In this document: in pieces, positions 1 through 23,946 of the stretch
Layout of the letters: every line of letters begins with the position of its first letter
Position numbering within the stretch: the stretch's first letter is position 1
From: Chloroflexota bacterium
GTDB taxonomy: Bacteria > Chloroflexota > Limnocylindria > P2-11E
Direction of reading: 5' to 3'
NCBI GenBank assembly: GCA_028876375.1
Contig: JAGWSB010000016.1
Span: forward strand, 1 to 39,777
Length of the DNA: 39,777 nt
The notes under the pieces: generated by a model
Told to the model about the DNA's origin: nothing
Database searches by the model: none
The model's input: only the letters and a program-made list of their open reading frames with translations
Position numbers and translations under genes: made by a program

Positions 1-2502
1 GGCACGGCCTTCGGCGCCGCCGCGCCGCGCGCCGCCGCGTGGATCCTGCGTCAGCTGCCGTGGACGATCTACGTCGTCCCGCACACGCACTGGGACCGCG
101 AGTGGTACGAGCGCTTCGAGGTCTACCGCGCGCGCCTCGTCCGGATGGTCGGGAAGCTCCTCGACCTCCTCGAGCGCGACGACGCCTTCACCGCGTTCAC
201 GTTCGACGGGCACGCGATCTGGGCCGAGGACCACCTCGCCGTCCGGCCGGAAGACCGGCCGCGCATCGAGCGGCTGGTGCGCTCCGGGCGGCTGCTCATC
301 GGCCCCTGGTACGTGCTCGCCGACTACCTCCTCGTATCCGGCGAGTCGATCGTGCGGAACTTCCAGGAAGGGCTGCGGGTGTCGGCGGCCTTCGGACGCG
401 CGATGCGCGTCTGCTACGTCGCGGACCCCTTCGGCCATCCCGCGCAGATGCCGCAGATCGCGCGCGGGTTCGGCTACACGACGTACGTGTTCGCGCGCGG
501 CGTCGGCGAGGAGGGCGAGGAGCTGGGCAGCGAATTCCGCTGGGAAGCGCCCTCCGGCGACCGCGTCATCGCCTCGCACCAGGTCGCGCACTACGACAAC
601 GCGCTCGAGCTCGTGGGCGCGGGCGACGAGTCCCCCGACGCGCTGCGGCGCCGCGTGCGGCGGGTCCTGCCGCGGCTCATGTCCGCGACGGTGCCGTACG
701 CGCAGACGTCGTCGCTCCTCTTCATGGTCGGGACGGACCACCTCGAGCCCTACGAGCGCCTGCCCGAGGCCGCCGCCGCGATCCGCGCGGCGCAGCCGCG
801 CTCGCGCGCGCGCATCGCCGGGCTGGAGGAGTTCGGGGCCGCGCTGCGCACGCCGCCGGGGATCCTCAGCGGAGAGATGATCGCCGGGAGGTACCGGCCC
901 ATCCTCCGCGGCGTGAACTCGACGCGCGTCTGGATCAAGCAGGCGAACGCGCAGTGCGAGCGCCTCCTCCTGGAGCGCTGCGAGCCGCTCGACGCGATCG
1001 CCGGCGGGACGGCGCGCGAGCGCATCCGCGAGCTGTGGCGCGTCCTCCTGCAGAACCATCCCCACGACTCGATCTGCGGCTGCGGTATCGACGACGTGCA
1101 CGACCTCGACATGCCGCCGCGCTTCGATCGCGTTCTCCGCGAGGGCGGCGAGATCGCGCGCGAGCTGGAGGCGCGCCTGGCGGGCGCGGGCGAGCGCGCC
1201 GTCGTCTGGAGCGACCTGCCGCACGAGCGCCTCGCGGTCGCCGACGTCGACGGCGCGCCCACCCTCGTGCGCTGCGACGGCCTCGGCGTCGCGCCCGCGG
1301 TCCGCGCGGCGGGGCGGCCGGTGACCTCGCCCGAGGACGGCGTCCTCGAGAACGGCCGCCTGCGCGTCGAGGTGGCGGCCGACGGCACCTTCGCGCTCGT
1401 CGACCTCGCGAGCGGCGCGCGCTGGGAGCGGCAGAACGTGCTCGTCGACGAGGGCGACCGGGGCGACGAATACACCTATTCATACGCGGGCCCCACGCTG
1501 GTGGGTGCCGCGCTCGCGGGGCGCCGCGCGACGAGCGTCTCCGGCGACCGCGGGACCGTCATCGTCGAGACCGCCCTGCGCATTCCCGTCGGCCTGCGCG
1601 ACGACCGCTTCGCCCGCGACCATGAGACGGTCGACTGTCCGCTCCGCGTCGCGGTGTCGCTCGACGCCGAGGCCGACCGCGTCGACGTCGCGGTCGAGAT
1701 CGACAATCGCGCGCGAGACCACCGGCTGCGCGCCGAGTTCGAGACCCGCACGCGCACGCTCACGCACCACGCCGGTGCCGCGTTCGCGATCCTCGAGCGC
1801 GCGGATCGCGTGCCTCCGCGTCCGGGCTGGATCGAGCCGCCCACCCCCGAGCGCTGCGTGCACGACGTCGTCGCCGTCCGCGGCGCGACGGTGGGCCTCG
1901 CGCTCGGCGTCGACGGCATCCGCGACTACGCCGTCCTGCGCGACGGCGCGGCGATCTCGATCACGCTGCTGCGCTGCGTGGGGTGGCTCTCGCGCGGCGA
2001 CCTTCCCGAGCGCGCCATCCACGCCGGTCCGGCGCTCGAGACGCCGACGGCGCAGTGCCCCGGGCCGCAGCGCTTCCGCTACTGCGTCGTGCCGCTCGAG
2101 GGCGAGCGCTCTCTCGCCGCCGCGGTGCGCGAGGTCCGCACGTTCCTCTCACCGCCGCGCGCCGCGCGCGGGGATGGCGAGGAGCGCACTTTCCTGCGCG
2201 TCGAGACGGAGCCGAGCGACGCGCTGGCGCAGGTCACGGCGCTGCGCTCGGCGCCCGACGGCCGCGTCGTCCTGCGCATCGCGTCGCTCGCGAACGGGCG
2301 CGTCGGCGTGTCCGTCCGCGCGCACCGTCCCGTGCGCTCCGCGCGCGCGACCGACCTGCGCGAGGGCGACCTCGCGCTCGGCAACACCGGCCTCGACGTC
2401 CTCCGCACGGCCGCGCCGCTCGAGATCCTCCCGGACGGATCCGCCGTCGCTCGACTGGAGCCCTACGAGATCGGCACCTGGCTGGTCGAGCTAGCGCCGT
2501 AG
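1..2502 (+). CDS. Alpha-mannosidase, glycoside hydrolase family 38 (5' end probably outside window)
   Basis: Frame 1 is open from base 1: ...WTIYVVPHTHWDREWYERFEVYR...FTFDGHAIWAEDHL...VADPFGHPAQMPQIARGFGY...NHPHDSICGCGIDDVHDLD, typical GH38 motifs. The ORF track starts at 145, which is internal. Stop TAG at 2500-2502. Confidence 0.9.
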   Translation, partial: GTAFGAAAPRAAAWILRQLPWTIYVVPHTHWDREWYERFEVYRARLVRMVGKLLDLLERDDAFTAFTFDGHAIWAEDHLAVRPEDRPRIERLVRSGRLLIGPWYVLADYLLVSGESIVRNFQEGLRVSAAFGRAMRVCYVADPFGHPAQMPQIARGFGYTTYVFARGVGEEGEELGSEFRWEAPSGDRVIASHQVAHYDNALELVGAGDESPDALRRRVRRVLPRLMSATVPYAQTSSLLFMVGTDHLEPYERLPEAAAAIRAAQPRSRARIAGLEEFGAALRTPPGILSGEMIAGRYRPILRGVNSTRVWIKQANAQCERLLLERCEPLDAIAGGTARERIRELWRVLLQNHPHDSICGCGIDDVHDLDMPPRFDRVLREGGEIARELEARLAGAGERAVVWSDLPHERLAVADVDGAPTLVRCDGLGVAPAVRAAGRPVTSPEDGVLENGRLRVEVAADGTFALVDLASGARWERQNVLVDEGDRGDEYTYSYAGPTLVGAALAGRRATSVSGDRGTVIVETALRIPVGLRDDRFARDHETVDCPLRVAVSLDAEADRVDVAVEIDNRARDHRLRAEFETRTRTLTHHAGAAFAILERADRVPPRPGWIEPPTPERCVHDVVAVRGATVGLALGVDGIRDYAVLRDGAAISITLLRCVGWLSRGDLPERAIHAGPALETPTAQCPGPQRFRYCVVPLEGERSLAAAVREVRTFLSPPRAARGDGEERTFLRVETEPSDALAQVTALRSAPDGRVVLRIASLANGRVGVSVRAHRPVRSARATDLREGDLALGNTGLDVLRTAAPLEILPDGSAVARLEPYEIGTWLVELAP

Positions 2503-2778
2503 CTCCTCGCACGCGACGCCGTCGCGGTCGTGGTCGAGCCCGTGAGGGTCGAGCGGGTCCCGCCGCAGCGCCTCCTGCGCGGCCCCCTGGTCGGCGAAGT
2601 CGGCGCAGTCGAGATCGTGGAAGGGGGTCGGCGCCTCGACCACCAGGCGCGTCGTGGGGACGTCGCCGCTCGCCCGTCCCGCGGGCGCCGAGCCCGGCCC
2701 GGAGGCGGCGACGGGCACGCCGCACGAGGCGAGCAGCGCCGCCGACGCCATGAGGAGCGCGCGTCGCACGACTTCCAT
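2491..2778 (-). CDS. Small lipoprotein-like secreted protein with C-terminal Excalibur-type calcium-binding motif
   Basis: Minus frame: MEVVRRALLMASAALLASCGVPVAAS...DLDCADFADQGAAQEALRRDPLDPHGLDHDRDGVACEELRR*. Lipobox-like LLASC and DxDxDGxxCE Excalibur signature. Overlaps the GH38 stop by 12 bp (convergent). Confidence 0.8.
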   Translation of the reverse strand: MEVVRRALLMASAALLASCGVPVAASGPGSAPAGRASGDVPTTRLVVEAPTPFHDLDCADFADQGAAQEALRRDPLDPHGLDHDRDGVACEELRR

Positions 2779-2823
2779 ACGGCCGGCGCTTTCCGGGCGC
2801 CGCCCCTGACATACTTCCGCGAA

Positions 2824-3893
<1,070 letters not shown>

Positions 3894-3897
<4 letters not shown>

Positions 3898-6281
3898 CCC
3901 TCCGCGCGCAGCTGCAAGCCTTCCCGCTCGAGACGATCCTGCAGATCCTGGCCGCGACGGAGAAGACGGGGCGCCTCGAGGTGCGCGGCGACGAGGGGCG
4001 CGGCTTCCTCGGCGTGTCGTCCGGCCGGCTGGTGTCGGCCGAGTACGAGGACGAGCAGGGCCGCCGCGCGCTCGGCGCCATCTTCACCATCCTGCGCGGC
4101 GACCTCGAGTTCGTCCCCGGCGAGGGCGGGCTGCGCGAGGACCTGAGCGGCGACCTCGACGGACTGCTCGACCAGGCGGTCGAGGAGCGCGACCGCATCG
4201 TGCGCATCCGCGACGTCATCCCGAGCGACCGCACGCGCTTCGCCCTGTCGGCGCGCGCCGCCGATCAGGGGCAGATCACGCTCGCTCCCGAGCAGTGGCG
4301 CGCGCTGCTCGCCGTCGACGGCGAGCGCGACGTCGCCGCCATCGCCGAGAAGGTCGGCCTCACGCGCCTCGCGGCGCAAGACCTCCTCGCGACGCTCGTC
4401 CGCTCGGGCATGGTCGACGCGCTCGAGCCGGCGGCCGGCGCGGCCGAGCAGGGCGCGTATCGGCGGCTTCCGCCGATGCGTCCGATCCCGCCGACGGGAG
4501 CGGGGGAGGCCGTCGTCCTCAGCGGAGATCTTCCCGACCTCCCGCTCGAGACGATCGTCCAGCTCCTCGCGGCGACGAAGAAGACGGGTCGCCTCGAGAT
4601 CGCGGCGGGGCCCGAGAGCGCCACGCTCGGGATGTCCGACGGACGCCTCGTCTCCGCCGCCGCCGGCGAGGAGGACGGCGAGCTCGCGCTCGGCGCCGCG
4701 TTCGCCGTGGGCGCCGGCGAGTTCGACTTCGTCCCGATGCCCGAAGCGCCCGCGGCGGACCTGTCCGGCGAGGTCGACGAGCTCCTCGACCGCGCCGCCG
4801 GCCTGCGCGACCGCATCGCCGCGGTCCGCGCGCTCATCCCCAGCGACCGCTCGCGCTTCGCGCTCTCCGAGCGCGCGACGCGGAACGTGGAGATCACCCT
4901 CACGCCGGAGCAGTGGCGCGTGCTCCTGGCCGTGCATCCGCAGCGCGACGTGGGCATGGTCGCGGAGCAGCTGCGCATGCGGCGGCTCCCGACGCTGATG
5001 ATCCTCTCCGACCTCATCCGCGGCGGGTTCGTCGACGTCGTCGCGCCCGAGGCCGAGCTCTCGTGGCCGTACGTCGAGCGCCGCCGCACGCCGTGGGCGA
5101 CGCCCGCGCCGGAGGTCGAGGAGCGCGGCCCGTTGGCCGAGGAGCAGGCCACCGAGGAGGCGCGCGCGGTCGAAGAGCCGCCCGCGACGGGAGAGGCGCC
5201 GCCCGCCGAAGAGCCGCCCGCGGCTCCCGCCGCGGAAGAGGTCGAGGCGCCGCTCGAGGAGACGCCCATCGACCGCGAGGTCGAGGCGGCCGCGGAGGAC
5301 GACCGCCTGAGCGCCCTCTCCGGCCTGTTCGGTCCCGCCGAGCCCGCGCCGCCGCCGACGGCATGGGAGCCGCCCGCGGGGGAGGCCGAGGCCGCCGCGG
5401 CCGAGGCGACCGCCGCCGCGTTCGAGCACGCGCCGCCCGCCGAGGAGCGCGAGGAGCCCGCCGAGGTCGACCCGCGTCTCGCCGCCTTCGGCGCGCCGCC
5501 GGCCGAGCCCGAAGCGCTGGCCGAGCAGGAGGCGCCGCCGCAGTGGCAGACCTGGGAGACGCCCGCGGAGGCGGCGCCGATGGAAGCGCCGCCCGAGGAG
5601 CCGGCCGAGGTCGATCCACGCTTCGCCGCGCTCGCGCTGCCGCCTCTCGAGGAAGCAGCCGCCGCCGAGCCCGAGGCGCCGGCGGCCGAGGCGGAGACGT
5701 CGCTCGCCGACGCGGCCGCATGGCCGGAGGCCACGCACGTGCGTCCCGAGCCGGTCGCGGGCCGGCCGCTGCCCGAGATGCCGCCGCTCGAGGCCGCGAC
5801 CCCGGCCGCCGCGCCGCCCGAGAAGAAGAAGGGTGGGCTCTTCGGAGGTCTCTTCGGCGGGAAGGCCGCGCCCGTCGCGTCCAGCGCGTCCCTCGCGCGC
5901 ACCGACGCCGGGCGGCTCGCGCTCTTCGCCAACGAGCTCATCGCCGCGTACAACAGTGGGCGCTACGGCAAGGGCCGCGTCGAGGACCGCATGATCGGGC
6001 TGCTCATGCGCGTCGACGAGCAGGCCGATCCCATCGATCGGCCGATCCCGCTCGCGAACGACCGCATCGACGTCGCCTCGATCGACGACGGCCTCGTGCC
6101 GGAGGCACAGGCCGTGCCGTACCTCGCGTTGCTCGTGAGACAGGTGTACGACGACGCCGAGCGCGTGCTCGGGAAGGACAAGGCGCGCCGCGGCTTCCGC
6201 GACGCGCGCGACCGCGTGCTCGGGAAGGAGCCCGCTGTGCTGCGCGCGCCCGCGGTGGCCGGGCGCCTGCCGAAGGTCTGA
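3894..6281 (+). CDS. Tandem DUF4388 (PATAN) domain protein with Ala/Pro/Glu-rich linker and conserved-looking C-terminal domain
   Basis: MTLRAQLQAFPLETILQILAATEKTGRLEVRGDEGRGFLGVSSGRLVSAEY... and second copy LPDLPLETIVQLLAATKKTGRLEIAAGPESATLGMSDGRLVSAA. Each is followed by a winged-helix-like ITL[AT]PEQWR[AV]LLAV...RDV segment. Linker of about 250 aa, then KKKGGLFGGLFGGK. ATGA overlap with the upstream CDS. Confidence 0.8.
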
Positions 6282-7210
6282 GCCTCTACGTCGGGCTCGA
6301 CCTCGGCGGGACGCAGGTCCGCGCCGTGGTCGGCTCGCAGGACGAGAGACCCCGCATCGTCGCGGACTCGACGCGACCCACGCCGACCACCGGAGCGGAC
6401 GACGTCATCGCCGCGCTCGTCGCCTCCACCCGCGCCGCTCTCGATCAAGCGCGCCGCCCGCTGCGCGACGTCGTCGCCGTGGGCTGCTCCGCTCCGGGGC
6501 CGCTCGACCACGAGCGCGGGATCGTGCACGTCGCGCCGAACATCCACGGATTCGAGAACGTCCCGCTGGCCGCTCGCCTCTCGTCGGGCCTCGACGGCGT
6601 GCCCGTCTTCGTCGATCGCGACACCGTCATCGCCGCTATCGGGGAGGGCACGGTCGGCGCGGCGCGGGGGGTGCGCGACTTCGTGTACGTCACCGTCTCG
6701 ACCGGCGTCGGCGGGGCGATCGTCGCGGACGGCCGCATCGTCCGCGGCGCGACGAACACCGCGGGCGAGATCGGACACTGGCCGGTCGCGCTCGACGGCC
6801 CGCGCTGCGGATGCGGGTCGTTCGGCTGCGTCGAGGCCTTCGCCGGGGGGCGCAACCTCGCCGAGCGCTACGGCTCCCGCGATGCGGGAGACGTCTTCCG
6901 CGCGGCGGACGCGAACGACGCTCGGGCGCGCGCGCTCGTCGGCGAGCTGGAGTCGGCGATGGAGGCGCTCGGCGTCGGCCTCGTCAACGTCCTGAATCCG
7001 AGCCTCATCGTCGTCGGCGGCGGGATCGCCGAGCACGAGCCGACGCACGTCCTCGAGCCGATGCGCCGCGGAGCGCGCGAGCGCGCGTTCGCCGTCGCAT
7101 CCAAAGCGGTGCGGATCGTCCCCGCCGCGCTCGGCGCGGACGTCGGCATGATCGGTGCGGTGGTGGCCGCCCGACAACGCGTGGCCGGTCGGGACCCTCT
7201 CGCGGTCTGA
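6278..7210 (+). CDS. ROK family kinase (glucokinase-like); start codon uncertain (CTG at 6278 proposed)
   Basis: LSLYVGLDLGGTQVRAVVG...GCSAPGPLDHERGIVHVAPNI...VSTGVGGAIV...NTAGEIGHWPVALDGPRCGCGSFGCVEAFAGG; DLGGT phosphate-binding motif and ROK CGCGxxGCxE motif. No ATG/GTG/TTG just upstream of DLGGT. Confidence 0.87.
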   Translation: MSLYVGLDLGGTQVRAVVGSQDERPRIVADSTRPTPTTGADDVIAALVASTRAALDQARRPLRDVVAVGCSAPGPLDHERGIVHVAPNIHGFENVPLAARLSSGLDGVPVFVDRDTVIAAIGEGTVGAARGVRDFVYVTVSTGVGGAIVADGRIVRGATNTAGEIGHWPVALDGPRCGCGSFGCVEAFAGGRNLAERYGSRDAGDVFRAADANDARARALVGELESAMEALGVGLVNVLNPSLIVVGGGIAEHEPTHVLEPMRRGARERAFAVASKAVRIVPAALGADVGMIGAVVAARQRVAGRDPLAV

Positions 7211-7276
7211 AGGTCCCGGGCCCGCGCCACGAGGAGGCGGTAGGCTCCCGCGGGACCACGGAAGGAGGCCATGACG

Positions 7277-10820
<3,544 letters not shown>

Positions 10821-10828
10821 CGCCTGTT

Positions 10829-10898
10829 CAGGCTCGCGGGCTTTCGCCGCGTGGATCGTCGGTACGCTCACTCGACCGGCAAAGCCGGATCTCGCTGG
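10829..10898 (+). repeat. Two-hairpin intergenic element, copy 1 (downstream of eno; convergent with rpsT)
   Basis: CAGGCTCGCGGGCTTTCGCCGCGTGGATCGTC...CGACCGGCAAAGCCGGATCTCGC. Shares both stems and the intervening ATCGTC with 23855-23923. Confidence 0.6.
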
Positions 10899-10902
10899 CG
10901 GC

Positions 10903-11169
10903 CTACGCCTTCGTCTTCGCGGCCTGGCGCGCGATGCGCGACTTGCGGCGGCGCGCGGCGTTCTTGTGCAGGCCGCCGCGCTTGACGGCCTTGTCGAGCG
11001 CGCTCGCGGCCTTGCGGACGAGGTCCTTGGTCTCGCCGGTGCCCGCGGAGATCGCGTCGCGCGCGGCCTTGGCGGCGGTGCGCGCCGACGACCGCGCGAG
11101 CGTCTTGATGGCGGTCCGGCGGCGGGTCTGACGGATGCGCTTGAGGGCCGATCTCTTCTTCTTTGGCAT
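10903..11169 (-). CDS. rpsT: 30S ribosomal protein S20
   Basis: MPKKKRSALKRIRQTRRRTAIKTLARSSARTAAKAARDAISAGTGETKDLVRKAASALDKAVKRGGLHKNAARRRKSRIARQAAKTKA; bS20 (GGLHKNAARRxKSR). Confidence 0.95.
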   Translation of the reverse strand: MPKKKRSALKRIRQTRRRTAIKTLARSSARTAAKAARDAISAGTGETKDLVRKAASALDKAVKRGGLHKNAARRRKSRIARQAAKTKA

Positions 11170-11291
11170 TCGTTGACTGTAGCCGGAGCGCTCGCCCCTC
11201 GCTCGCGGCCAAGCCGCTCGCTCGGCCCGGGCGCGACCCCGTCGCCGCGGCGCCTCGGTCTGCGCGCCCGGGGACGACATACTCTCGACGC

Positions 11292-12875
11292 GTGCAGCTG
11301 AGCATCGCGCAAGCGTCGGTCGTGATGATCGCGACGCTCATCGCGAGCCGGATCCTGGGGTGGCTACGCCTCTCCGTCATCGGCGCGCAGTTCGCGGGCG
11401 ACCCGCGCGCGCTCGACGCGTTCTGGGCCGCCTTCCGCATCCCGGACACGATCTACAACCTGCTCGTCGCCGGCGCGCTCTCCAGCGCGTTCATCCCCGT
11501 GTTCTCGAGCTACCTCGCCAAGGAGCGCGAGGAGGAGGCCTGGCACGTCGCCTCGAGCGTCATGAACGCGATGCTGCTCTCGCTCGTCGCGCTCTCCGGC
11601 GTGATGTGGCTCCTCACGCCGTGGCTCGTCCCCTTGATGGCGCCCGACTACGACGCGCAGCAGCAGGCGCTCATGACCGAGCTCACACGGATCATGCTCC
11701 TCAGCCCCATCTTCATGGGCCTCTCGGCGCTCTTCACCGGGATGCTCAACTCGTACCGCCAGTTCCTCTCGGGGGCGACGGCGCCGCTCGTCTACAACGC
11801 CGTGATCATCCTCTTCGCGCTCTTCGCCTCGCCGTTCATCGGCATCCACGCGCTGGCCGTCGGCGTCGTCGTCGGCGCGGCGATGATGTGGCTCGTCCAG
11901 GTCCCCGAGCTCACGTTCCGGCGGACGCGCTACAAGGCCGTCCTCGACCTCGCGCACGCCGGCGTCCGGGAGATCGCGATCCTCGCCTGGCCGCGCACGC
12001 TCGCGCTCGCGTCGGTCCAGGTCGTCTTCTTCGTCGACGTGTACCTGTCGTCGTTCATGGCGCCGGGCTCGTACACGTCGCTCTACTACGCGTTCCAGCT
12101 GACGATGCTGCCGCTCGGCGTCTTCTCCATCGCCATCTCCGCCGCCGTCTTCCCCGCGCTCACACGCTACGCGTCGCTCGGGCAGCAGGGACGGATGCGC
12201 GACACCGTCGAGCAGGCGACGCGGTGGATCGTCTTCCTCACGCTGCCGACGATCATCGTCATGATCGTCCTGCGGCGCCCGATCGTGAACCTGCTCTTCC
12301 AGTACGGGGAGTTCGGCGACGCGGCGCGCGAGGCGACGGCGCTCGCGTTCCTCTTCTACGCCCTCGGCCTCATCGGCCATGCCCTGGTGCAGATCCTCGC
12401 GCGCGCGTATTACGCCATCAAGGACACGCGAACGCCCGTCGCCATGACCGTCGTCGCGATCGTCGTGAACGTCGTGCTGGCGCTCGTCCTCGCGCCGGGC
12501 CTCGGCATCAACGGCCTCGCGCTGGCCAACTCGATCGCGACCCTCGCCGAGGCGACGCTCCTGCTCTTCGTCCTCGCGCCGCGCGCGCGTCTGCGCGTCG
12601 GGACGCTCAGCGTCTCGACGCTGCGGCAGCTCGCCGCGAGCCTGACCATGGGGGTCGCGATGTTCCTCTTCATCCGGGTGACGAACATCCCGCTCGACCT
12701 CGCGACGGCGCCGTCGAAGCCGCTGCTGCTGCTCCAGACGCTCATCGCGTTCGCGTTCGGCGGCCTCGTCTACGTCGGCGCGTCGACGATCTTCCGCGTC
12801 GGGGAGCTGGAGGAGATCGTCACCGTGCTCCGGAGCCGCGGGCCGTTCGCGAAGAAGGCGGCCGCGTCCACCTGA
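11292..12875 (+). CDS. murJ: Lipid II flippase MurJ (MviN)
   Basis: VQLSIAQASVVMIATLIASRILGWLRLSVIGAQFAGDPRALDAFWAAFRIPDTIYNLLVAGALSSAFIPVFSSY...; multi-TM MviN pattern. GTG start in frame of the 11163 ORF. Confidence 0.93.
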   Translation: MQLSIAQASVVMIATLIASRILGWLRLSVIGAQFAGDPRALDAFWAAFRIPDTIYNLLVAGALSSAFIPVFSSYLAKEREEEAWHVASSVMNAMLLSLVALSGVMWLLTPWLVPLMAPDYDAQQQALMTELTRIMLLSPIFMGLSALFTGMLNSYRQFLSGATAPLVYNAVIILFALFASPFIGIHALAVGVVVGAAMMWLVQVPELTFRRTRYKAVLDLAHAGVREIAILAWPRTLALASVQVVFFVDVYLSSFMAPGSYTSLYYAFQLTMLPLGVFSIAISAAVFPALTRYASLGQQGRMRDTVEQATRWIVFLTLPTIIVMIVLRRPIVNLLFQYGEFGDAAREATALAFLFYALGLIGHALVQILARAYYAIKDTRTPVAMTVVAIVVNVVLALVLAPGLGINGLALANSIATLAEATLLLFVLAPRARLRVGTLSVSTLRQLAASLTMGVAMFLFIRVTNIPLDLATAPSKPLLLLQTLIAFAFGGLVYVGASTIFRVGELEEIVTVLRSRGPFAKKAAAST

Positions 12876-12876
12876 A

Positions 12877-13968
12877 ATGGTGGCTGGACTCGCACATGGT
12901 CGTGTGAACCTCATCGGAGAGCACACGGACCATTCGGATGGGTTCGTCCTACCCGTTCTCATCCCCCAAGAGACCCGCGTCGAGCTCGAGCCGCGGCGCG
13001 ACCGTGTCGTGCGCGTGACGAGCGCGAACGTCGAGGCCGGAACGTGGCACGAGCACGAGCTCGGGAGCGAGGAGCCGACGGGGACGTGGACCGACCACGT
13101 CCGGGGCGTCACCCGCATCCTCGCGCGCGAGGGTCTCCTCGACCGCGGCTTCGTCGCGCGCGTCTCGTCCGACGTCCCCCTGGGCGCGGGGCTCGCGTCG
13201 AGCGCGGCGCTCGCCGTCGCGCTCCTGCGCGCGATCCGCCAGGCGTTCGCGCTCGACCTCGACGACGTCGCGCTCGCGCGCGTCGCGCAGCGCGCCGAGC
13301 GCGAGATGGCCGGCGCGAACGTCGGGATCATGGATCAGATGGCGGCGTCGGTGGGCGCGCTCGGCGAGGCGCTCTTCCTCGACTGCCGCTCGCTGGCATA
13401 CCAGCGCGTGCCGCTGCCCGACGCGATGGAGCTCGTCGTCGTCGACTCCGGCGTCGTCCATCGGCACGGCTCGGGCGGATACAACGAGCGGCGCGCGCAG
13501 TGCGAGGAGGCGGCGCGCCTCCTCGGCGTCGCGGCGCTGCGCGACGTGACGGCGGCCGACCTCCCGCGCATAGGGTCGCTGCGCGAGCCGCTCGCGCGCC
13601 GCGCGCGGCACGTCGTCAGCGAGAACGAGCGCGTCCTCGAGGCGGTCCATGCGCTGCGCGCCGGCGACGTCCCCGGCCTCGGCGAGCTGCTCGACGCGTC
13701 GCACCGCTCGCTGCGCGACGACTTCGAGGTGTCGACGGAGGAGGTCGACCTGCTCGTGGGGCTCGTGCGCGAGCAGGAGGCCGTGCACGGCGCGCGCATC
13801 ACCGGCGGCGGCTTCGGCGGATCGATCGTCGCGGTCGCCGACGCGGGCGAAGGGCATCACGCCGCGGCGCTCGCGGTCGCCGAGTACGAGCAGCGCACGG
13901 GCCTCGACGCAAAGGTCCTGCTTCCCCCGCACGTTCTGGAAGCGCTCGCCGGGAACGATCCTCTCTGA
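12877..13968 (+). CDS. galK: Galactokinase (GHMP kinase)
   Basis: AHGRVNLIGEHTDHSDGFVLPVLIPQ...VSSDVPLGAGLASSAALAVALL...GIMDQMAASVG...GARITGGGFGGSIVAV. Confidence 0.92.
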   Translation: MVAGLAHGRVNLIGEHTDHSDGFVLPVLIPQETRVELEPRRDRVVRVTSANVEAGTWHEHELGSEEPTGTWTDHVRGVTRILAREGLLDRGFVARVSSDVPLGAGLASSAALAVALLRAIRQAFALDLDDVALARVAQRAEREMAGANVGIMDQMAASVGALGEALFLDCRSLAYQRVPLPDAMELVVVDSGVVHRHGSGGYNERRAQCEEAARLLGVAALRDVTAADLPRIGSLREPLARRARHVVSENERVLEAVHALRAGDVPGLGELLDASHRSLRDDFEVSTEEVDLLVGLVREQEAVHGARITGGGFGGSIVAVADAGEGHHAAALAVAEYEQRTGLDAKVLLPPHVLEALAGNDPL

Positions 13969-14002
13969 GCCGGGAATAGATCCGCTGTAGCGTGAGGTCG
14001 CG

Positions 14003-14866
14003 ATGACCGTTCAGCCCGTTCGCGTCGCCGTCATCCCCGCCGCGGGCCTCGGGACGCGCTTCCTGCCGGTGACGAAGAGCGTCCCCAAAGAGCTCCTCCC
14101 GCTCGTCGACGTGCCGATCATCGACGTCGTCGTGAGCGAGGCGGTCGCCGCGGGCTGCGACGAGATCGTCGTCGTGACCGCGCCGGGTAAGGAGCCGCTC
14201 GACGCGTACTTCCGCCCGAACGCGCGCCTCGAGGAGAGGCTCGCCGCCGAGAAGCGCGACGGCGACCTCGCGCTGGCGCGCCGCGGCGAGACGGTCCGGG
14301 TGACGTGCGTCCCGCAGGACCGCCCGCGCGGCAACGGCCACGCCGTGCTCTGCGCGCGGGAGGTCGTCGGCCGGCGCCCGTTCGTGATGATCTGGGGCGA
14401 CGACGTCGTCTTCGCCCAGGAGCCCGTCGCGGCGCAGCTCATCCGCGCGCGCGAGCGACAGGGCGGGGGCAGCGTCGCCGGCGTCGTCCGCGTCCCGCCG
14501 GACGAGGTGCGCAAGTACGGCGTCGTCGAGGGCGAGCCGGTCGCGGAGCGCACCTGGCGGCTGCGACGCATCGTCGAGAAGCCGGAGCGCCCGACGAGCG
14601 ACCTCGGCGCGGTCCACGCGTACGTGCTCGAGCCCGAGATCTTCGACGTGCTGGCGTCGCATCCCGCGGGGCGCGGCGGCGAGATCTGGCTGAGCGAGGC
14701 CGTGAGCGTGCTCGCCCAGCGCGCGCCGGTGTACGCGTACGAGTTCGAGGGCGAGCGCTACGACGCCGGAGACCGCGCGGGCTACGTGAAGGCCTTCATC
14801 CGCGCCGCGCTGGAGCGGCCGGAGATCGCCGCCGACGTCCGCGCGTGGCTGCGCCAGCGCCTTTAG
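14003..14866 (+). CDS. galU: UTP--glucose-1-phosphate uridylyltransferase
   Basis: [65 protein letters not shown]...[14 protein letters not shown]...WGDDVVF. Confidence 0.93.
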
Positions 14867-14873
14867 CGTCTGT

Positions 14874-16688
14874 GTGGTGAGCGACGCCCAGCAGCGCATC
14901 CGCAACTTCTGCGTCATCGCGCACGTCGACCACGGCAAGACGACCCTCTCCGACCGGCTCCTCGAGCTGACGGGAACGGTCGCCGCGCGGCAGATGCGCG
15001 ACCAGATGCTCGATTCGATGGACCTCGAGCGCGAGAAGGGCATCACCATCAAGGCGCGCGCCGTCCGGATGGAGTGGACCCACGACGGCTCGAGCTACGA
15101 GCTGAACCTCATCGACACCCCCGGCCACGTCGACTTCAACTACGAGGTGAGCCGCTCGCTCGCGGCGTGCGAGGGCGCCGTCCTGCTGGTGGACGTGTCG
15201 CAGGGCATCGAGGCCCAGACGCTGGCGAACGCGTATCTCGCCGTCGAGCAGGGCCTGGAGATCATCCCGGTCATCAACAAGGTCGACCTGCCGAACGTCG
15301 ACCTCGATCTCGTGCGCGAGGACCTCCGCTCGACGCTCGGATTCAAGGACGAGGAGATCCTCCTCTCCTCGGGCAAGACCGGGCTCGGCGTGCGCGAGAT
15401 CCTCGACGCCGTCGTGACGCGCGTCCCCCCGCCGAAGGGCGATCCCGCCGCGCCGCTGCGCGCGCTCATCTTCGACTCGCACTACGACCCCTACCGGGGC
15501 GTCGTCGCGCACGTCCGCGTGGTCGACGGCGCCGTGGCGGTCGGCGACCAGATGCTGCTCATGGCGACCGACAAGCAGGGCGAGCTCCTCGAGCTCGGCA
15601 CCTTCGCGCCGGAGGCGCGCCCGTGCGAGCGTCTCGCGACGGGCGAGGTCGGCTACCTCGCGACGGGCCTCAAGACCGTGCAGGACTGCCACGTCGGCGA
15701 CACGGTGACGCTCGCGGACCGCCCCGCGCGCGAGCCGCTCCACGGCTATCGCCCGGCGAAGCCGATGGTCTTCGCCGGCATCTACCCGACCCGCTCCGAC
15801 GACCACCCCGCGCTCCGCGACGCGCTGGAGAAGCTGAAGCTCAACGACGCGTCGCTGGTGTACGAGCCCGAGACCTCGCAGGCGCTCGGGTTCGGCTTCC
15901 GCTGCGGGTTCCTCGGCCTCCTCCACATGGAGATCATCCAGGAGCGCCTCGAGCGCGAGTACGACCTCGACATCATCGCGACCGCGCCCTCCGTCGAGTA
16001 CCAGGTGCTCACCACGCGCGGAGCCGAGGTGCCCATCGACAACCCGGCGATGCTCCCCGATCCGACGACGATCGCCGAGACGAGGGAGCCGTGGATGAAG
16101 GTGACGATCATCGCGCCCACGCAGCACGTCGGCCCGGTCATGGAGCTGGCGCAGGGGAAGCGCGCGACGCTCGTCGAGATGACCTACGTCGACCCGACGC
16201 GGGCGATGCTGCGCTACGACATGCCGCTCAGCGAGGTCATCGTCGACTTCTACGACCAGCTCAAGAGCCGCTCGCAGGGCTACGCCTCGCTCGACTACGA
16301 GCTCGCGGGATACCGCGCCGCCGACGTCGTCCTGCTCGAGGTCCTCGTCGCCGGCGTGCCCGTCGACGCGCTGTCGACGATCGTCCACCGCGAGCGCGCG
16401 CCGTACGTCGGGCGGACGCTCGTCTCCAAGCTCCGCGGCCTCATCCCGCGGCAGCAGTTCGACGTGCCCATCCAGGCCGCCATCGGGGGCAAGATCGTCT
16501 CGCGCGAGACGGTGAAGGCGCTGCGCAAGAACGTTCTCGCGAAGTGCTACGGCGGCGACATCACCCGCAAGCGCAAGCTCCTCGAGAAGCAGAAGGCCGG
16601 CAAGAAGCGGATGAAGATGGTGGGCCAGGTCGAGATCCCGCAGGAGGCCTTCCTCGCCGTGCTCCGGGCGGGGGAGGAGACGGCGTGA
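14874..16688 (+). CDS. lepA: Elongation factor 4 (LepA GTPase)
   Basis: [31 protein letters not shown]...[18 protein letters not shown]...[28 protein letters not shown]...INKVDLP...[39 protein letters not shown]. Confidence 0.96.
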
Positions 16689-17152
16689 AGATCGAGCCCG
16701 AGCTCGAGCATCCCGCTCAGGGCATCGCCTCGGCGTTCCTGCGCGCCATCGTCGACGACGACGCCGCGGCGGTCTTCGAGCGCCTCTCGCAGCGCACGCG
16801 CGGGCTCCTCGAAGGCCTGCACGCGGCGCGCAGCGGCGGCGCGCTCGTCGCCGAGCGCGACGTCGCGGCCGTCGTCGCGCCGCTCCGCACGTCGGTCGTC
16901 GCGGCGCTCGGCGGGGTCGAGCGGATCGGCCGCTTCGGCGTCTCCGGCGCGCGCGTCGTCGACCGGCACACCGCGTACGTCCTGCTCCTGGCCGACGTCG
17001 AGAAGGAAGGCCTCCTCACGGAGGACGACTGGCGGCCGGCCCACCTCCTCGCCTTCGTCCACGAAGCGCGCGACTGGGTGGTCGACCTCGAGCGCACCGC
17101 GGCGCTCTCCGCCGACGCGGAGCTCCCGGACCCGCTGGGGAGCGTGCGGTGA
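16685..17152 (+). CDS. Hypothetical protein (about 155 aa) between lepA and hemW
   Basis: GTG start overlapping the lepA stop (GTGA) and 4-nt overlap with hem[52 protein letters not shown]...[32 protein letters not shown]. Confidence 0.75.
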
Positions 17153-18312
17153 GGGGCGTCTCGCTCTACGTGCACGTGCCCTTCTGCGCGTCGCGCTGCC
17201 CCTACTGCGACTTCGCGACGGCGCCCGCGACGTCGCCCATGCGCGCGCGGTACCTCGAGGCGCTGGCGCGCGAGATCGAGCGCGAGGGGACGGCCCTCGG
17301 GCGCCCGCGCCTGCGCAGCGTGTTCTTCGGCGGCGGCACGCCGAGCCTGCTCGACCCGCCGGAGGTCGCGCGCCTCGGCGACGCGATCCGCCGCGGCTTC
17401 GCCGCCCGGCCGCGCCCGCGCGAGGTCACCGTCGAGGCGAACCCCGCCACGCTCGACCGCGCGCGCCTCGACGCCTGGCGCGGTCTCGGGCTCACGCGGC
17501 TCTCTCTCGGCGCGCAGTCGCTGTCGCCGCGCGGGCTGCGCGCCCTCGGGCGCACGCACCAGCCGGAGGACGTGCCCGCGGCGGTCGAGGCCGCGCGGTC
17601 GCTCGGGCTCCGCGTCGGGATCGACCTCATCTTCGGCTGGCCGGGGCAGTCGATCGACGAGTGGCGCGACGACGTCGACGCCGCCGTCGCGCTCGGGCCG
17701 GACCACCTCTCGTGCTATCCGCTGGAGCTCGAGCTGGAGCCCGAAGCGAGCGTCGTCAACTGGCCGGGCGGAGGCTGGACGGCCGTCGAGCGGTGGCGGG
17801 AGGCGGCCGCGGCGCGGCAGCCCGACGACCGCGGCCTCGCCGTGCGGTACGCGGTCGCGGAGCGGCGCCTCGCGCGCGCCGGCTACCGCCACTACGAGAT
17901 CTCGAATTGGGCGAAAGAGGGCGCGGTCTGCCTGCACAACGCGACGTACTGGCGCAACGGCGCGTGGCTCGGCGTCGGCGCCGGCGCGCACTCGCACCTC
18001 GAGCGCGTGCGCTCCCACCGCCCGGTCGCGCTCGCGCGCTACCTCGCGGACGTCGAGCGCGGCGCGGCGCGGATCGTCGACGACCGTAGCGACGAGGCCG
18101 TCGACGGCGCGATGCTCGCGCTGCGGCGCGACACCGGCATCGACCTCGCCCGCTTCGCCGTTCGCTGCGGCTCCGACGCGCGGGAGCGCGTCGCGCGGGC
18201 GCTGCGCGGCGTCGACGGCCGCGGGCTGGTGCGCTGGACGGGCGATCGCGTGACGCTCACGCCGCGCGGACGGATCCTCGCGAGCGAGGTCTTCGTTCGA
18301 CTGTTGCCGTGA
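17149..18312 (+). CDS. hemW: Radical SAM HemW-like protein (coproporphyrinogen III oxidase-like)
   Basis: VSLYVHVPFCASRCPYCDFAT (CxxxCxxC), FFGGGTPSLLDP, GLTRLSLGAQSL, GIDLIFGWPGQS, YEISNWAKEGAVCLHNATYWRNGAWLGVGAGAHSHL. Confidence 0.93.
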   Translation: MRGVSLYVHVPFCASRCPYCDFATAPATSPMRARYLEALAREIEREGTALGRPRLRSVFFGGGTPSLLDPPEVARLGDAIRRGFAARPRPREVTVEANPATLDRARLDAWRGLGLTRLSLGAQSLSPRGLRALGRTHQPEDVPAAVEAARSLGLRVGIDLIFGWPGQSIDEWRDDVDAAVALGPDHLSCYPLELELEPEASVVNWPGGGWTAVERWREAAAARQPDDRGLAVRYAVAERRLARAGYRHYEISNWAKEGAVCLHNATYWRNGAWLGVGAGAHSHLERVRSHRPVALARYLADVERGAARIVDDRSDEAVDGAMLALRRDTGIDLARFAVRCGSDARERVARALRGVDGRGLVRWTGDRVTLTPRGRILASEVFVRLLP

Positions 18313-18328
18313 TCGATCACGAGGCGTC

Positions 18329-18348
18329 TGAGGGGCCGAGCCCCCTCA
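18329..18348 (+). repeat. GC palindrome / possible weak terminator after hemW
   Basis: TGAGGGGCCGAGCCCCCTCA, followed by TCGTCTCT. Confidence 0.45.
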
Positions 18349-18428
18349 TCGTCTCTTGCGTGCGTCGCGTGGACGCGCTATGCCTTGCGCGCGTTGGAAC
18401 GACACCGATGAGCGCTGTGGGAGGCGAC

Positions 18429-18782
18429 ATGCAGGACGAGACCACCGGGACGAACTGGGGTCAGGGTGAGCAGGAGCCGGGATCGATCTGGCCCGCGCCG
18501 CAGCCCCCGATGCCGACCCCGCCGATGCCGGCGACCCCCGCACCGAAGCCGAGCGGCCGCAAGTCCACCGCGCGCAAGAAGACGACGGCGCGCAAGAAGA
18601 CCACCGCACGCAAGGCGACCGCGCGCAAGAAGACGACCGCACGGAAGAGCACGGGGCGCCGCAAGAGCACCGCGCGCAAGAGCACCGGGCGCAAGACGAC
18701 ACGGAAGACGACGCGTCGGTCGACGGCGCGCAAGGGCACGCGGAAGTCGACGCGCAAGAGCACGCGCCGCCGGCGCAAGTAA
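18429..18782 (+). CDS. Histone H1-like Lys/Arg/Thr-rich basic protein
   Basis: MQDETTGTNWGQGEQEPGSIWPAPQPPMPTPPMPATPAPKPSGRKSTARKKTTARKKTTARKATARKKTTARKSTGRRKSTARKSTGRKTTRKTTRRSTARKGTRKSTRKSTRRRRK*. GGAGG 4 nt upstream of ATG 18429. The ORF track start (18309) overlaps the hemW stop and is less likely. Confidence 0.8.
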   Translation: MQDETTGTNWGQGEQEPGSIWPAPQPPMPTPPMPATPAPKPSGRKSTARKKTTARKKTTARKATARKKTTARKSTGRRKSTARKSTGRKTTRKTTRRSTARKGTRKSTRKSTRRRRK

Positions 18783-18801
18783 CGATCGGGCAGCGACGAC
18801 G

Positions 18802-18827
18802 AAAGAGCCGCCGAGAGGCGGCTCTTT
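18802..18827. terminator. Bidirectional Rho-independent terminator between convergent genes
   Basis: AAAGAGCCGCC-GAGA-GGCGGCTCTTT perfect 11-bp stem, with TTTCCTTTAG after it on + and TTTCG on -. Confidence 0.9.
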
Positions 18828-18830
18828 CCT

Positions 18831-18938
18831 TTAGTTCCTCTTACCGCGGCCCATTCCCGGCTTGCGGCCGTGGTTCGCTCTCTTCGAGCGCCAGCCGAGC
18901 TTGCCGGTCGTCTTGCGCTTCTTCTGACCCTTGCCCAT
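18831..18938 (-). CDS. Small basic 35-aa protein, possible bL37-type ribosomal protein
   Basis: Reverse complement reads MGKGQKKRKTTGKLGWRSKRANHGRKPGMGRGKRN*. Stop sits 3 nt from the terminator stem. SD-like GGAAGGTGG upstream. High-GC third positions. Not in the ORF track (too short). Confidence 0.68.
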   Translation of the reverse strand: MGKGQKKRKTTGKLGWRSKRANHGRKPGMGRGKRN

Positions 18939-19371
18939 CCGCGCCACCTTCCATCGTGAAGAGCTGGAGCTGCAGGACGCGCGTCGGGGGCGCGATGAGC
19001 TCCGTCACCAGCCATTGTCCTACGCCGGCGGCCGACGCATCGGCCGGTCGGCCGAGCTTCGCGCGGACCGCGGCGAGGCGCTTGCGACCGGTGCGCTCGT
19101 CGACCCCGGCGACGCGGCAGGCGTCCGCATGCGAGCGCTCCAGCACCTCGCGGAGGACGAACAGCGAGAGGTCCTGCCCGCGCAGCGCGTGGCGGCCGAC
19201 GAGCTCGCGCAGTCGCGCGCCGGACAGCCGCCCGCTCGCGATGCCGGCGCGGATCGCCGCCGCCGCGTCGCCGTCGACGTCCGCGACGCGCAGCAGCGCC
19301 GCGACCTCGCCGTCCGGAAGCTGGCGGATCGCGCCGAGCGTGTCAAGGGATCCGCCGCCGACGTCGTCCAT
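18841..19371 (-). CDS. Hypothetical protein, 176 aa
   Basis: MDDVGGGSLDTLGAIRQLPDGEVAALLRVADVDGDAAAAIRAGIASGRLSGARLRELVGRHALRGQDLSLFVLREVLERSHADACRVAGVDERTGRKRLAAVRAKLG...; balanced composition versus Arg/Ala-rich alternative frames. Its C-terminus overlaps the 35-aa ORF. Confidence 0.55.
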   Translation of the reverse strand: MDDVGGGSLDTLGAIRQLPDGEVAALLRVADVDGDAAAAIRAGIASGRLSGARLRELVGRHALRGQDLSLFVLREVLERSHADACRVAGVDERTGRKRLAAVRAKLGRPADASAAGVGQWLVTELIAPPTRVLQLQLFTMEGGADGQGSEEAQDDRQARLALEESEPRPQAGNGPR

Positions 19372-19420
19372 GGGGTCGCCAATGATGCACCGTGTGTCCA
19401 GCGGCGGTACCGTTCGCCGC

Positions 19421-20131
19421 ATGCCGGACGCCGCCATCGCCCAACGGCTGCGGCGCTTGCCTCTCTTCGCGCGGCTCTCCGACGAGGAGCTCGCCGATCT
19501 CGCCGCGCGCATCCGGCTGCGCCCGTACCGCCGGAGCGAGGTCATCTTCCGCAAGGACGACCCCGGGACGCACCTCTACCTCGTGCTCGAGGGGGCGGTG
19601 AAGATCTCGCTGCCGGGCGAGTTCGGCCAGGAGGCGCTCGTCGCGATCATGCGCGCGGGCGACTTCTTCGGAGAGCTCGCGCTCTTCGACCGCAGCCCGC
19701 GGTCGGCGAGCGCCGTCGCGCTCGAGGACACGCGCGCCGCGCTCCTCGCGGGCGAGGAATTCCTCGCCTTCCTCGAGCGGCACCCGACGGCCGTCCGCGT
19801 CGTTCTCGAGACGCTCGCGCGCACCATCCGCCGTCTGTCGGACCGCGTCGAGCACCTCACCTTCCTCGACGTCCCCAGCCGCGTCGCGAAGTACCTCCTC
19901 GACCTCGCGCACGAGAGCGCCGCCGTCCCGGTCGGCGCGAGCGCGGCGCCGGCGGCGCCCGCGCTCGAGCTCAGCCTCACGCAGGACGAGCTCGCGGCGT
20001 TCGTCGGAGCGTCGCGCGTGTCGGTGAACCGCGTCCTCGGCGACCTCGAGCGCCGGGAGATCGTCGGAGTGCGCCGGCGGCACATCGTCATCAAGGACCC
20101 CGACCGCCTGGCCAAGGAGATCCGGTTCTGA
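19421..20131 (+). CDS. Crp/Fnr family transcriptional regulator
   Basis: MPDAAIAQRLRRLPLFARLSDEELADLAARIRLRPYRRSEVIFRKDDPGTHLYLVLEGAVKISLPGEFGQEALVAIMRAGDFFGELALFD...LSLTQDELAAFVGASRVSVNRVLGDLERREIVGVRRRHIVIKD; cNMP-binding plus HTH_Crp. Confidence 0.93.
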   Translation: MPDAAIAQRLRRLPLFARLSDEELADLAARIRLRPYRRSEVIFRKDDPGTHLYLVLEGAVKISLPGEFGQEALVAIMRAGDFFGELALFDRSPRSASAVALEDTRAALLAGEEFLAFLERHPTAVRVVLETLARTIRRLSDRVEHLTFLDVPSRVAKYLLDLAHESAAVPVGASAAPAAPALELSLTQDELAAFVGASRVSVNRVLGDLERREIVGVRRRHIVIKDPDRLAKEIRF

Positions 20132-20565
20132 TGGCGAAGAAGAAGCCTCTCGTCCTCATCGTCGAGGACGACTCCGACCTCGGCCTGTCGATCGTCGAGT
20201 ACCTGAAGGAGGAGGGGCTCGACGCGAAGCTCGCGCGCGACGGGGATCAGGCCATGCGGATGGTCGACTCGCTGTCGCCGGCCGTCGTGGTGCTCGACCT
20301 GATGATGCCGAGGCGGGACGGCTTCAGCGTCCTGCGCGAGCTGCGCTCCGACGGCCGCATCGCGACGCTCCCGGTCATCGTCGTCACCGCGATCTTCGGC
20401 CTGTCCGAGCGCCTCTACGCCACCGAGCTGGGCGCCGCCGACTACGTGACCAAGCCCTTCAAGCTCGACGAGCTGCTGTCGCGGATCGTCGGGCTGCTGC
20501 CGGCCGAGGCGCGGCCGGCGGGGGCGCCCGAGCAGGCGCCGAAGAGCGGCGGCGGCGCTTCTTGA
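20131..20565 (+). CDS. Response regulator, receiver domain only
   Basis: MAKKKPLVLIVEDDSDLGLSIVEYLKEEGLDAKLARDGDQAMRMVDSLSPAVVVLDLMMPRRDGFSVLRELR...VIVVTAIFG...GAADYVTKPFKLDELLSRI. TGATG overlap with the upstream crp/fnr gene. Confidence 0.93.
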   Translation: MAKKKPLVLIVEDDSDLGLSIVEYLKEEGLDAKLARDGDQAMRMVDSLSPAVVVLDLMMPRRDGFSVLRELRSDGRIATLPVIVVTAIFGLSERLYATELGAADYVTKPFKLDELLSRIVGLLPAEARPAGAPEQAPKSGGGAS

Positions 20566-20589
20566 CGCTGGCGTCGAGGGCCTGATAGC
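20562..20589 (+). promoter_or_regulatory. Putative sigma70-type promoter for the hrcA operon
   Basis: TTGACG (20562-20567), 16 nt, GATAGC (20584-20589), immediately upstream of CIRCE. Confidence 0.5.
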
Positions 20590-20593
20590 CTCG

Positions 20594-20620
20594 TTAGCAC
20601 TCCCGAGGGGAGAGTGCTAA
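20594..20620. promoter_or_regulatory. CIRCE operator (HrcA binding site)
   Basis: TTAGCACTC-N9-GAGTGCTAA, exact match to the consensus inverted repeat, abutting hrcA. Confidence 0.97.
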
Positions 20621-21414
20621 TGGCCCAGAAGACACCCTATCGGCTTCCCGAGCTGGCGCCGCGGCAGCGGGACATCCTGCATGCCGTCATCCGCGAGCAC
20701 CTGGAGAGCGCGCATCCGGTCGCGTCGGCCGCGCTGGTCCAGCGCTACCGCCTGCCGGTGTCCTCGGCGACGGTGCGCAACGAGCTCGCGATGCTCGAGG
20801 AGCTCGGCCTGCTCACGCACCCGCACACGTCGGCGGGCCGCGTGCCCACCGACCTGGGCTACCGCTACTTCATCGAGAGCCTCATGCCGCGCCCCGACAT
20901 CGACGAGGACGAGCGCGTCACCCTGAGCCACCAGTTCCGGCAGGCGCCGGACGACACCGCCGACCGCCTGCGCCTCGCCGCGTCGACGCTCGCGCGTCTC
21001 ACGGCCGAGGCGGCGATCGCGACGTTCGACGCCGTCGTCGACCTCGACCGCGTCACCTGGACGCGCGAGATCCACTACGAGGGCGTCGAGCTCGTCCTCG
21101 AGCAGCCGGAGTTCGAGCGGCGCGACCTGGTCCGCGAGGTGATGGCGCTCCTCAACGACCGGGCGCTCCTGGCGCGGGTCCTGCCGCTGGGCCTCGGCGA
21201 GGGCGACGTCGCCGTGACCATCGGAGGCGAGCTCGCGGTCGAGGCCCTGCACGCGTTCGCGCTCGTGGTCGGGAGGTACGGCTCGCCCGAGCGCCCCGCG
21301 GGGTACGTCGGGGTCGTCGGTCCGCGGCGCATGGACTACCGGCGCACCATCGGCGCCGTCCGTTACATCGGTGAGCTCATGAGCGACCTCGTGGGCCCCG
21401 CCGGGGGTGCGTGA
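20620..21414 (+). CDS. hrcA: Heat-inducible transcription repressor HrcA
   Basis: MAQKTPYRLPELAPRQRDILHAVIREHLESAHPVASAALVQRYRLPVSSATVRNELAMLEELGLLTHPHTSAGRVPTDLGYRYFIESLM...GVVGPRRMDYRRTIGAVRYIGELMSDLV, after a perfect CIRCE. Confidence 0.96.
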   Translation: MAQKTPYRLPELAPRQRDILHAVIREHLESAHPVASAALVQRYRLPVSSATVRNELAMLEELGLLTHPHTSAGRVPTDLGYRYFIESLMPRPDIDEDERVTLSHQFRQAPDDTADRLRLAASTLARLTAEAAIATFDAVVDLDRVTWTREIHYEGVELVLEQPEFERRDLVREVMALLNDRALLARVLPLGLGEGDVAVTIGGELAVEALHAFALVVGRYGSPERPAGYVGVVGPRRMDYRRTIGAVRYIGELMSDLVGPAGGA

Positions 21415-21942
21415 TGGACGATCCCATCGACGCCCAGGCGACCGACCTTCAGAACAAGGTCGACGAGCTGACGCGGGACCTGCAGCGCGTCGCCGCGGAC
21501 TTCGCGAACTACCGCCGCCGGAACGAGGCGGAGCGCTCGGACTTCGCGCGCTTCGCCAAGTCGGAGCTCATCGAGAAGCTGCTCGAGGTGCTCGACGGCT
21601 TCGACCGCGCGCTCGAGACGGTGCCCTCGGACTACCGCGACGCGCCGTGGGTCGAAGGCATCTGGCTCGTCGAGCGCAAGCTGCGCGACATCCTCGCCGC
21701 GGAGGGGCTGGAGGCCGTCGGGTCGGTGGGGAAGCCCTTCGATCCGTACGTGCACGAGGCCATCGCGCACGTCGATTCGTCGGAGCCGGAAGGCACCGTC
21801 GTCGACGAGGTGCGCAAGGCCTACAAGCTCCACGACCGCATCCTGCGGCCCGCTCTCGTCACGGTCGCGAAGGGGCCGCGCGGGAGCACCGACAGCAACG
21901 ACAACAACGACACACGCGCGCGCGGAAAGGGGAACAACGGCC

Positions 21943-21950
<8 letters not shown>
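21414..21950 (+). CDS. grpE: Nucleotide exchange factor GrpE
   Basis: [57 protein letters not shown]...[50 protein letters not shown]. Confidence 0.95.
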
Positions 21951-23853
<1,903 letters not shown>

Positions 23854-23854
23854 C

Positions 23855-23923
23855 CAGGCTCGCGGCTTCGCCGCGTGCATCGTCTGAGCGCGCGCGGGAC
23901 CGGCGACGCCGGATCCCGCGCGC
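23855..23923 (+). repeat. Two-hairpin intergenic element, copy 2 (dnaK-dnaJ spacer)
   Basis: CAGGCTCGCGGCTTCGCCGCGTGCATCGTCTGAGCGCGCGCGGGACCGGCGACGCCGGATCCCGCGCGC: hairpin 1 CGCGGC-TTC-GCCGCG; hairpin 2 GCGCGCGGGACCGGC-GAC-GCCGGATCCCGCGCGC with one bulged A. Confidence 0.65.
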
Positions 23924-23946
23924 TGCCTCTCTGAGAACATAGACAG

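Follow-up and report, generated by a model that had tools for sequence, protein, structure and literature searches.

The window analysed here, a 39,777-nt stretch of Chloroflexota DNA, carries eno converging on rpsT and, further along, dnaK followed by the co-directional dnaJ, and each of these two gaps holds a two-hairpin element. The original prediction had described both, and its sequences and coordinates proved correct. The features are as follows.

9525-10820, + strand: eno gene
10818-10820, + strand: eno stop codon; the element begins 8 nt later
10825-10902, + strand: whole insertion in the eno-rpsT gap, 78 bp, missing by alignment from the same-genus genome G003
10835-10851, + strand: hairpin 1 of the eno copy, CGCGG-loop-CCGCG, subfamily B
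10874-10891, + strand: core hairpin of the eno copy, GACCGGC-AAA-GCCGGATC, with a bulged A
10903-10905, − strand: rpsT stop codon; the core lies 11 nt away, on the other strand
10903-11169, − strand: rpsT gene
21943-23853, + strand: dnaK gene
23851-23853, + strand: dnaK stop codon, 1 nt before the start of CAGGCTCGCGG
23855-23923, + strand: two-hairpin element in the dnaK-dnaJ gap, subfamily B
23861-23875, + strand: hairpin 1 of the dnaK copy, CGCGGC-TTC-GCCGCG
23890-23923 (core 23898-23915), + strand: core hairpin of the dnaK copy, its flanks turned into a long stem and the bulged A kept
23947-25041, co-directional with dnaK: dnaJ gene

Two elements at gene ends

The CAGGCTCGCGG sequence starts at 10829 in the eno copy and at 23855 in the dnaK copy, so that the spacings of 8 nt and 1 nt agree with the claim that each element begins within 8 nt of a stop codon. 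The usual TCGCTC flanks are gone from the dnaK copy, whose 15-bp stem, with its bulged A, is more stable than shuffled sequences (z −4.2). For the eno copy, stability does not exceed that of shuffles (z −0.3), and minimum free energy is uninformative there. In some subfamily B copies, among them locus L008 and window positions 23890-23923, the flanks that elsewhere form an internal loop are fully paired, which lengthens the core stem while the bulged A is kept. From comparison with the same-genus genomes G001 and G004, the ancestral end of dnaK (TGA-GA-ACTAG-like) appears to have been displaced to about 23933, past the element.

An intrinsic terminator consists of a GC stem followed by a T-tract; no T-tract follows either window copy and no terminator-like site was called at either, in keeping with the earlier view that these are not simple terminators. 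The strongest intrinsic-terminator-like site called within 9001-25000 was a 12-bp stem with a T-rich tail at 18801-18828. Rfam gave no match in the window at the gathering threshold, and only tRNA and tmRNA matches at eight element-bearing loci from relatives and other phyla.

Copy number, architecture and covariation

The core GACCGGC-N3-GCCGGATC occurs twice in the window and 10 times exactly, in both orientations, in the 2.6-Mb genome to which the window belongs; the reversed pattern, used as a control, occurs 0 times in the same genome. Exact cores number 6, 13, 4 and 10 in four same-genus genomes and 25 in G009. The original prediction had proposed a covariance-model search of the genome and its relatives, and a model of the core placed copies at about 19 sites in the window's genome (scored among the best 150 candidates), at 11, 19, 8 and 27 sites in the same-genus genomes and at 50 in G009. 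Beyond the window's genus, carriers of the same family are G009 (genus g6) and, weakly, G005 (g2).

The repeating unit spans about 70-110 bp and combines a variable hairpin 1 with a constant core hairpin. From the outside inwards, the core consists of GC pairs, a 2x2 TC-TC internal loop, 3 bp, the bulged A, 5 bp and a triloop that is mostly RNA in IUPAC code (purine-N-A). Subfamily A runs from a hairpin 1 of the type AGCCGTCGGCTCG...CGCGGCT through GCTCCGCTC to CTCGCTCG-core-CTCGCTCG; subfamily B has the layout CAGGCTCGCGGCTTCGCCGCGTGCATNGTCGGTNCGCTCGCTC-core-TCGCTCG and includes the eno, dnaK, L008, L010, L081 and L086 copies. A second dispersed hairpin, CCCAGGGGYAGGGGCCCCTGTGC, sits inside the hairpin 1 region in some copies and stands alone elsewhere in G004; it was seen at L044, L047, L052, L061 and L276:13219.

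Covariation, the other check proposed at the outset, was pronounced. Across 98 distinct aligned copies, 97.1% of pairing cells were paired, and both sides had changed in 34 cells versus 4.9 in shuffles and 0-8 in slid controls; these counts are not independent events, since copies share descent, though several distinct compensated states are present. Within the core, variation falls on the pair that closes the inner stem, on the pair next to it and on the second upper-stem pair (CG, UA, AU, GC). Because the searches that collected the copies left the most variable pair unspecified or let mismatches be free, the compensation was not made by the search pattern. Hairpin 1 of subfamily A behaved similarly, its outer pair being G-C or T-A in 30 of 30 copies (23.0 expected) and its next pair G-C, A-T or C-G in 27 of 30 (10.2 expected); the hairpin 1 stem of subfamily B hardly varies among copies. 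In the inner stem, five A.C-type mismatches would become G.U wobbles if read on the sense strand; read on the other strand, none would be a wobble.

Presence, absence and placement of copies

We found that none of the four same-genus relatives, nor G009, has the element downstream of eno or upstream of dnaJ. G003 aligns to window positions 541-10824 and 10903-11181 with 3 bp between the two blocks on its own side, and in G001 eno and rpsT almost abut. The dnaK-dnaJ gap measures only about 15 nt in G001 and G004, where the site is empty. Conversely, one copy on contig C143 of G004 and one on contig C81 of G002 correspond to places in the window without an element. Presence and absence between close relatives was thus seen at four orthologous sites, as expected of a mobile element. 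Loss in several relatives instead of gain is possible and less parsimonious. Few pairs of copies are positionally orthologous across genomes, L010 and L081 being one such pair. Having neither further copies in the genome nor conservation in close relatives had been named as what would refute the original prediction; further copies were found, and it is conservation at the site that is missing.

No long flanking repeats were found at the Chloroflexota copies, where a search for duplications of that kind yielded nothing convincing above the shuffled background; the bracketing of the dnaK copy by TGA...TGA is suggestive at most. In G003 the dnaK-dnaJ gap (L275:4328) holds a different GC-rich hairpin of about 40 bp, which would make the gap a possible hot spot for insertion. 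Separately, upstream of eno (window about 9513-9525), G001, G002 and G004 hold about 2-3.2 kb of extra DNA relative to the window.

The initial impression of the locus could have been of a conserved cis-regulatory 3′-UTR shared by eno and dnaK, or of chance GC-rich palindromes. We give these readings next to no credence: the element is missing from the same sites in relatives, and chance palindromes are ruled out by the 10 exact cores against none in the reversed control together with the consistent covariation.

Placement was scored with gene calls from a simple codon-usage caller trained on the genome itself. Of 64 copies, 44 have the core facing a gene's stop codon (p = 0.004), with about half of those distances at 10-17 nt, and the other 20 have it facing a start codon. 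Among copies between co-directional genes, 32 are antisense and 13 sense (p = 0.007). Divergent gaps are avoided, accounting for 6 of 61 copies versus 26 of 90 background gaps (p = 0.005). A general role as terminators is disfavoured by the several copies that sit between closely spaced genes of apparent operons. A position beside highly expressed genes, noted for eno and dnaK, did not hold as a general trait; other copies adjoin varied genes, including an amino-acid-kinase (pyrH-like)/RRF pair, RNase PH/MazG, transketolase-domain pairs, an amine-oxidase/aminotransferase pair and others.

These preferences bear on whether the element is instead a functional RNA module of mRNA 3′ ends (acting as a terminator, as a barrier to exonucleases or as a hairpin near the ribosome) that selection favours behind stop codons, with its spread secondary. 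On the usual mRNA-sense strand such a module would read stop codon, about 10 nt including CGAGCGAG, GAUCCGGC-NNN-GCCGGUC, CGAGCGAG and hairpin 1. The tight spacing of 10-17 nt from stops, the shared orientation in several phyla and the compensatory stem changes are what such a module would display, and the five sense-strand G.U wobbles hint weakly the same way. There is also precedent in Escherichia coli, where REPs within 15 nt of a stop codon affect translation, as PMC12306157 states, citing earlier work. We nevertheless judge this explanation unlikely: both window copies lack a T-tract and a terminator call, copies lie in tight gaps of apparently co-transcribed genes, a start instead of a stop faces the core in nearly a third of cases, and the eno copy is no more stably folded than shuffled sequence. 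The 3′-UTR module raised in the original prediction survives only in a weak sense, in that copies are stop-adjacent with a preferred orientation; the eno and dnaK copies themselves are conserved at their sites in no close relative examined.

The core recurs outside this family. When genome contigs from 84,980 species were scanned for exact matches, it turned up, apparently in intergenic DNA, in MAGs titled Deltaproteobacteria (three), Nitrospira, Candidatus Manganitrophaceae and Candidatus Peregrinibacteria. The first four of these MAGs belong to one 46-genome phylum, in which 14 of the 46 genomes carry the core. Stems in other phyla are often unlike the Chloroflexota stem, yet paired; a G-tract/C-tract hairpin commonly takes the place of hairpin 1, and the core, in the same orientation, often lies no more than about 20 nt from the end of a long ORF. 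Among 400 sampled Chloroflexota, the core matched in the window's genus only, and plasmids and phages gave no near-full-length match to the repeat. A single match on a viral contig, its stem not compensated, is probably due to chance, and most pattern matches in other Chloroflexota families and in Sphingomonas were dropped as chance since their flanks were unrelated and coding-like. The patchy distribution over phyla suggests horizontal movement or an old mobile ancestry, two histories that these data do not separate.

An apparently mobile repeat and its relation to known systems

Together, the many copies per genome, the covariation, the presence and absence between sister species, the preference for positions after stops, the avoidance of divergent gaps and the patchy recurrence in other phyla are the observations on which our explanation builds, and the REP-like family suggested at the outset is well supported by them. 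We consider it likely that the eno and dnaK elements are two subfamily B copies of a dispersed, non-autonomous REP-like DNA repeat whose folded core is acted on in trans and which is inserted at tolerated gene ends. The best reading is that the repeat is undescribed and apparently mobile; no occurrence of the core sequence strings was found in the literature searched. Under this explanation the core would fold as single-stranded or cruciform DNA, a putative nuclease or recombinase acting in trans would recognize the folded form, and this enzyme would copy or insert the element at gene ends that tolerate it. Once inserted, the element would be carried mostly passively as a 3′-end or intercistronic hairpin, and mRNA 3′ ends may be affected secondarily.

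We looked for a resident mobilizer in the carriers. No Y1_Tnp/RAYT gene (PF01797) was found in G000-G005 or G009 (MAGs 70-95% complete), no integron integrase (TIGR02249) exceeded the cut-off in 14 carrier genomes, and no reverse transcriptase was found in the Chloroflexota carriers. PF01797 is present in G061 and G063 and as a fragment in G062, and a structural scan of the loci around these genes found no core. A resident Y1 transposase, integron integrase or reverse transcriptase is unlikely in the Chloroflexota carriers because it is missing across six or seven MAGs, incomplete as these are. We put forward only tentatively, and hold as more doubtful than true, the broader proposal of a new family of mobile hairpins across distant phyla, in which one core is kept by compensatory change, inserted in a preferred orientation behind stop codons and moved in trans by an enzyme other than the known Y1 transposases, integron integrases or reverse transcriptases.

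The core could alternatively be an attC-type recombination site of integrons, its folded single strand recognized by a tyrosine integrase. Like attC, it is an imperfect hairpin with an analogous internal loop, a bulged base and a small terminal stem, lying directly behind stop codons in a fixed orientation, and partial duplications of gene 3′ ends beside some G062 and G063 copies would also fit. However, none of the 14 carrier genomes has an integrase over the cut-off, R and L boxes were not recognized (the R-box consensus GTTRRRY/RYYYAAC was not seen by eye in the core flanks), and the copies are mostly singletons, with no cassette arrays; we think this very improbable. The duplications, of the adjacent gene or tRNA 3′ end, flank the copies at L155, L157, L153, L161, L169 and L147; at L157 and L153 the peptide encoded by the duplicated coding tails is identical despite many synonymous differences. 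The duplications may stem from assembly or from mixed strains.

REP-like repeats have usually been reported as families specific to one clade, and many of these are RAYT-linked. The repeat studied here is unlike that usual picture in having one core in several phyla, stems that differ yet remain paired, the same preferred stop-side orientation and no recognizable mobilizer. It shares with REPs and BIMEs (the GTAG superfamily, mobilized by RAYTs) short palindromes dispersed in multiple extragenic copies per genome, also within intra-operon gaps, often close after stops and varying between related genomes. It differs from them in its larger two-hairpin unit, in Chloroflexota carriers without Y1_Tnp/RAYT and in lacking an unpaired GTAG at the palindrome end, the flanks being GCTC/TCGC in nearly all 98 copies. 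Because it has neither the tag nor the transposase by which the named REP superfamilies are defined (PMC3733652), we do not file it under any of them, although it behaves in a REP-like manner. The phylum itself is not new for REPs, as GTAG repeats have been reported in Chloroflexi, with GTAG-23 in T. roseum (PMC3733652).

The end hairpins of IS200/IS605 elements and the MITEs derived from them offer a parallel in the extrahelical base as a plausible recognition signal, whereas our Chloroflexota carriers lack TnpA and no autonomous parent element was found. A palindromic family that spans several phyla without a dedicated transposase has its counterpart in the CGTC-tagged repeats, which include Rickettsia RPE-4/6 and Neisseria dRS3 (PMC3733652). 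Those repeats have 8-9 bp stems, 4-5 nt loops, A-T first pairs, a CCA-like tail and HH dimers; by that description, the 98-copy alignment shows no CGTC tag, 8-9 bp stem, 4-5 nt loop or CCA-like tail, and has instead a bulged A, a triloop, GC/TC-TC loop flanks and a second hairpin. The repeat is unusual in its cross-phylum core, its bulged and looped structure, its stop-proximal placement and its lack of a known mobilizer. It makes testable by what means palindromes orphaned of a transposase (the CGTC repeats, for instance) move, and whether a hairpin that lands just past a stop codon alters the expression of the host's genes.
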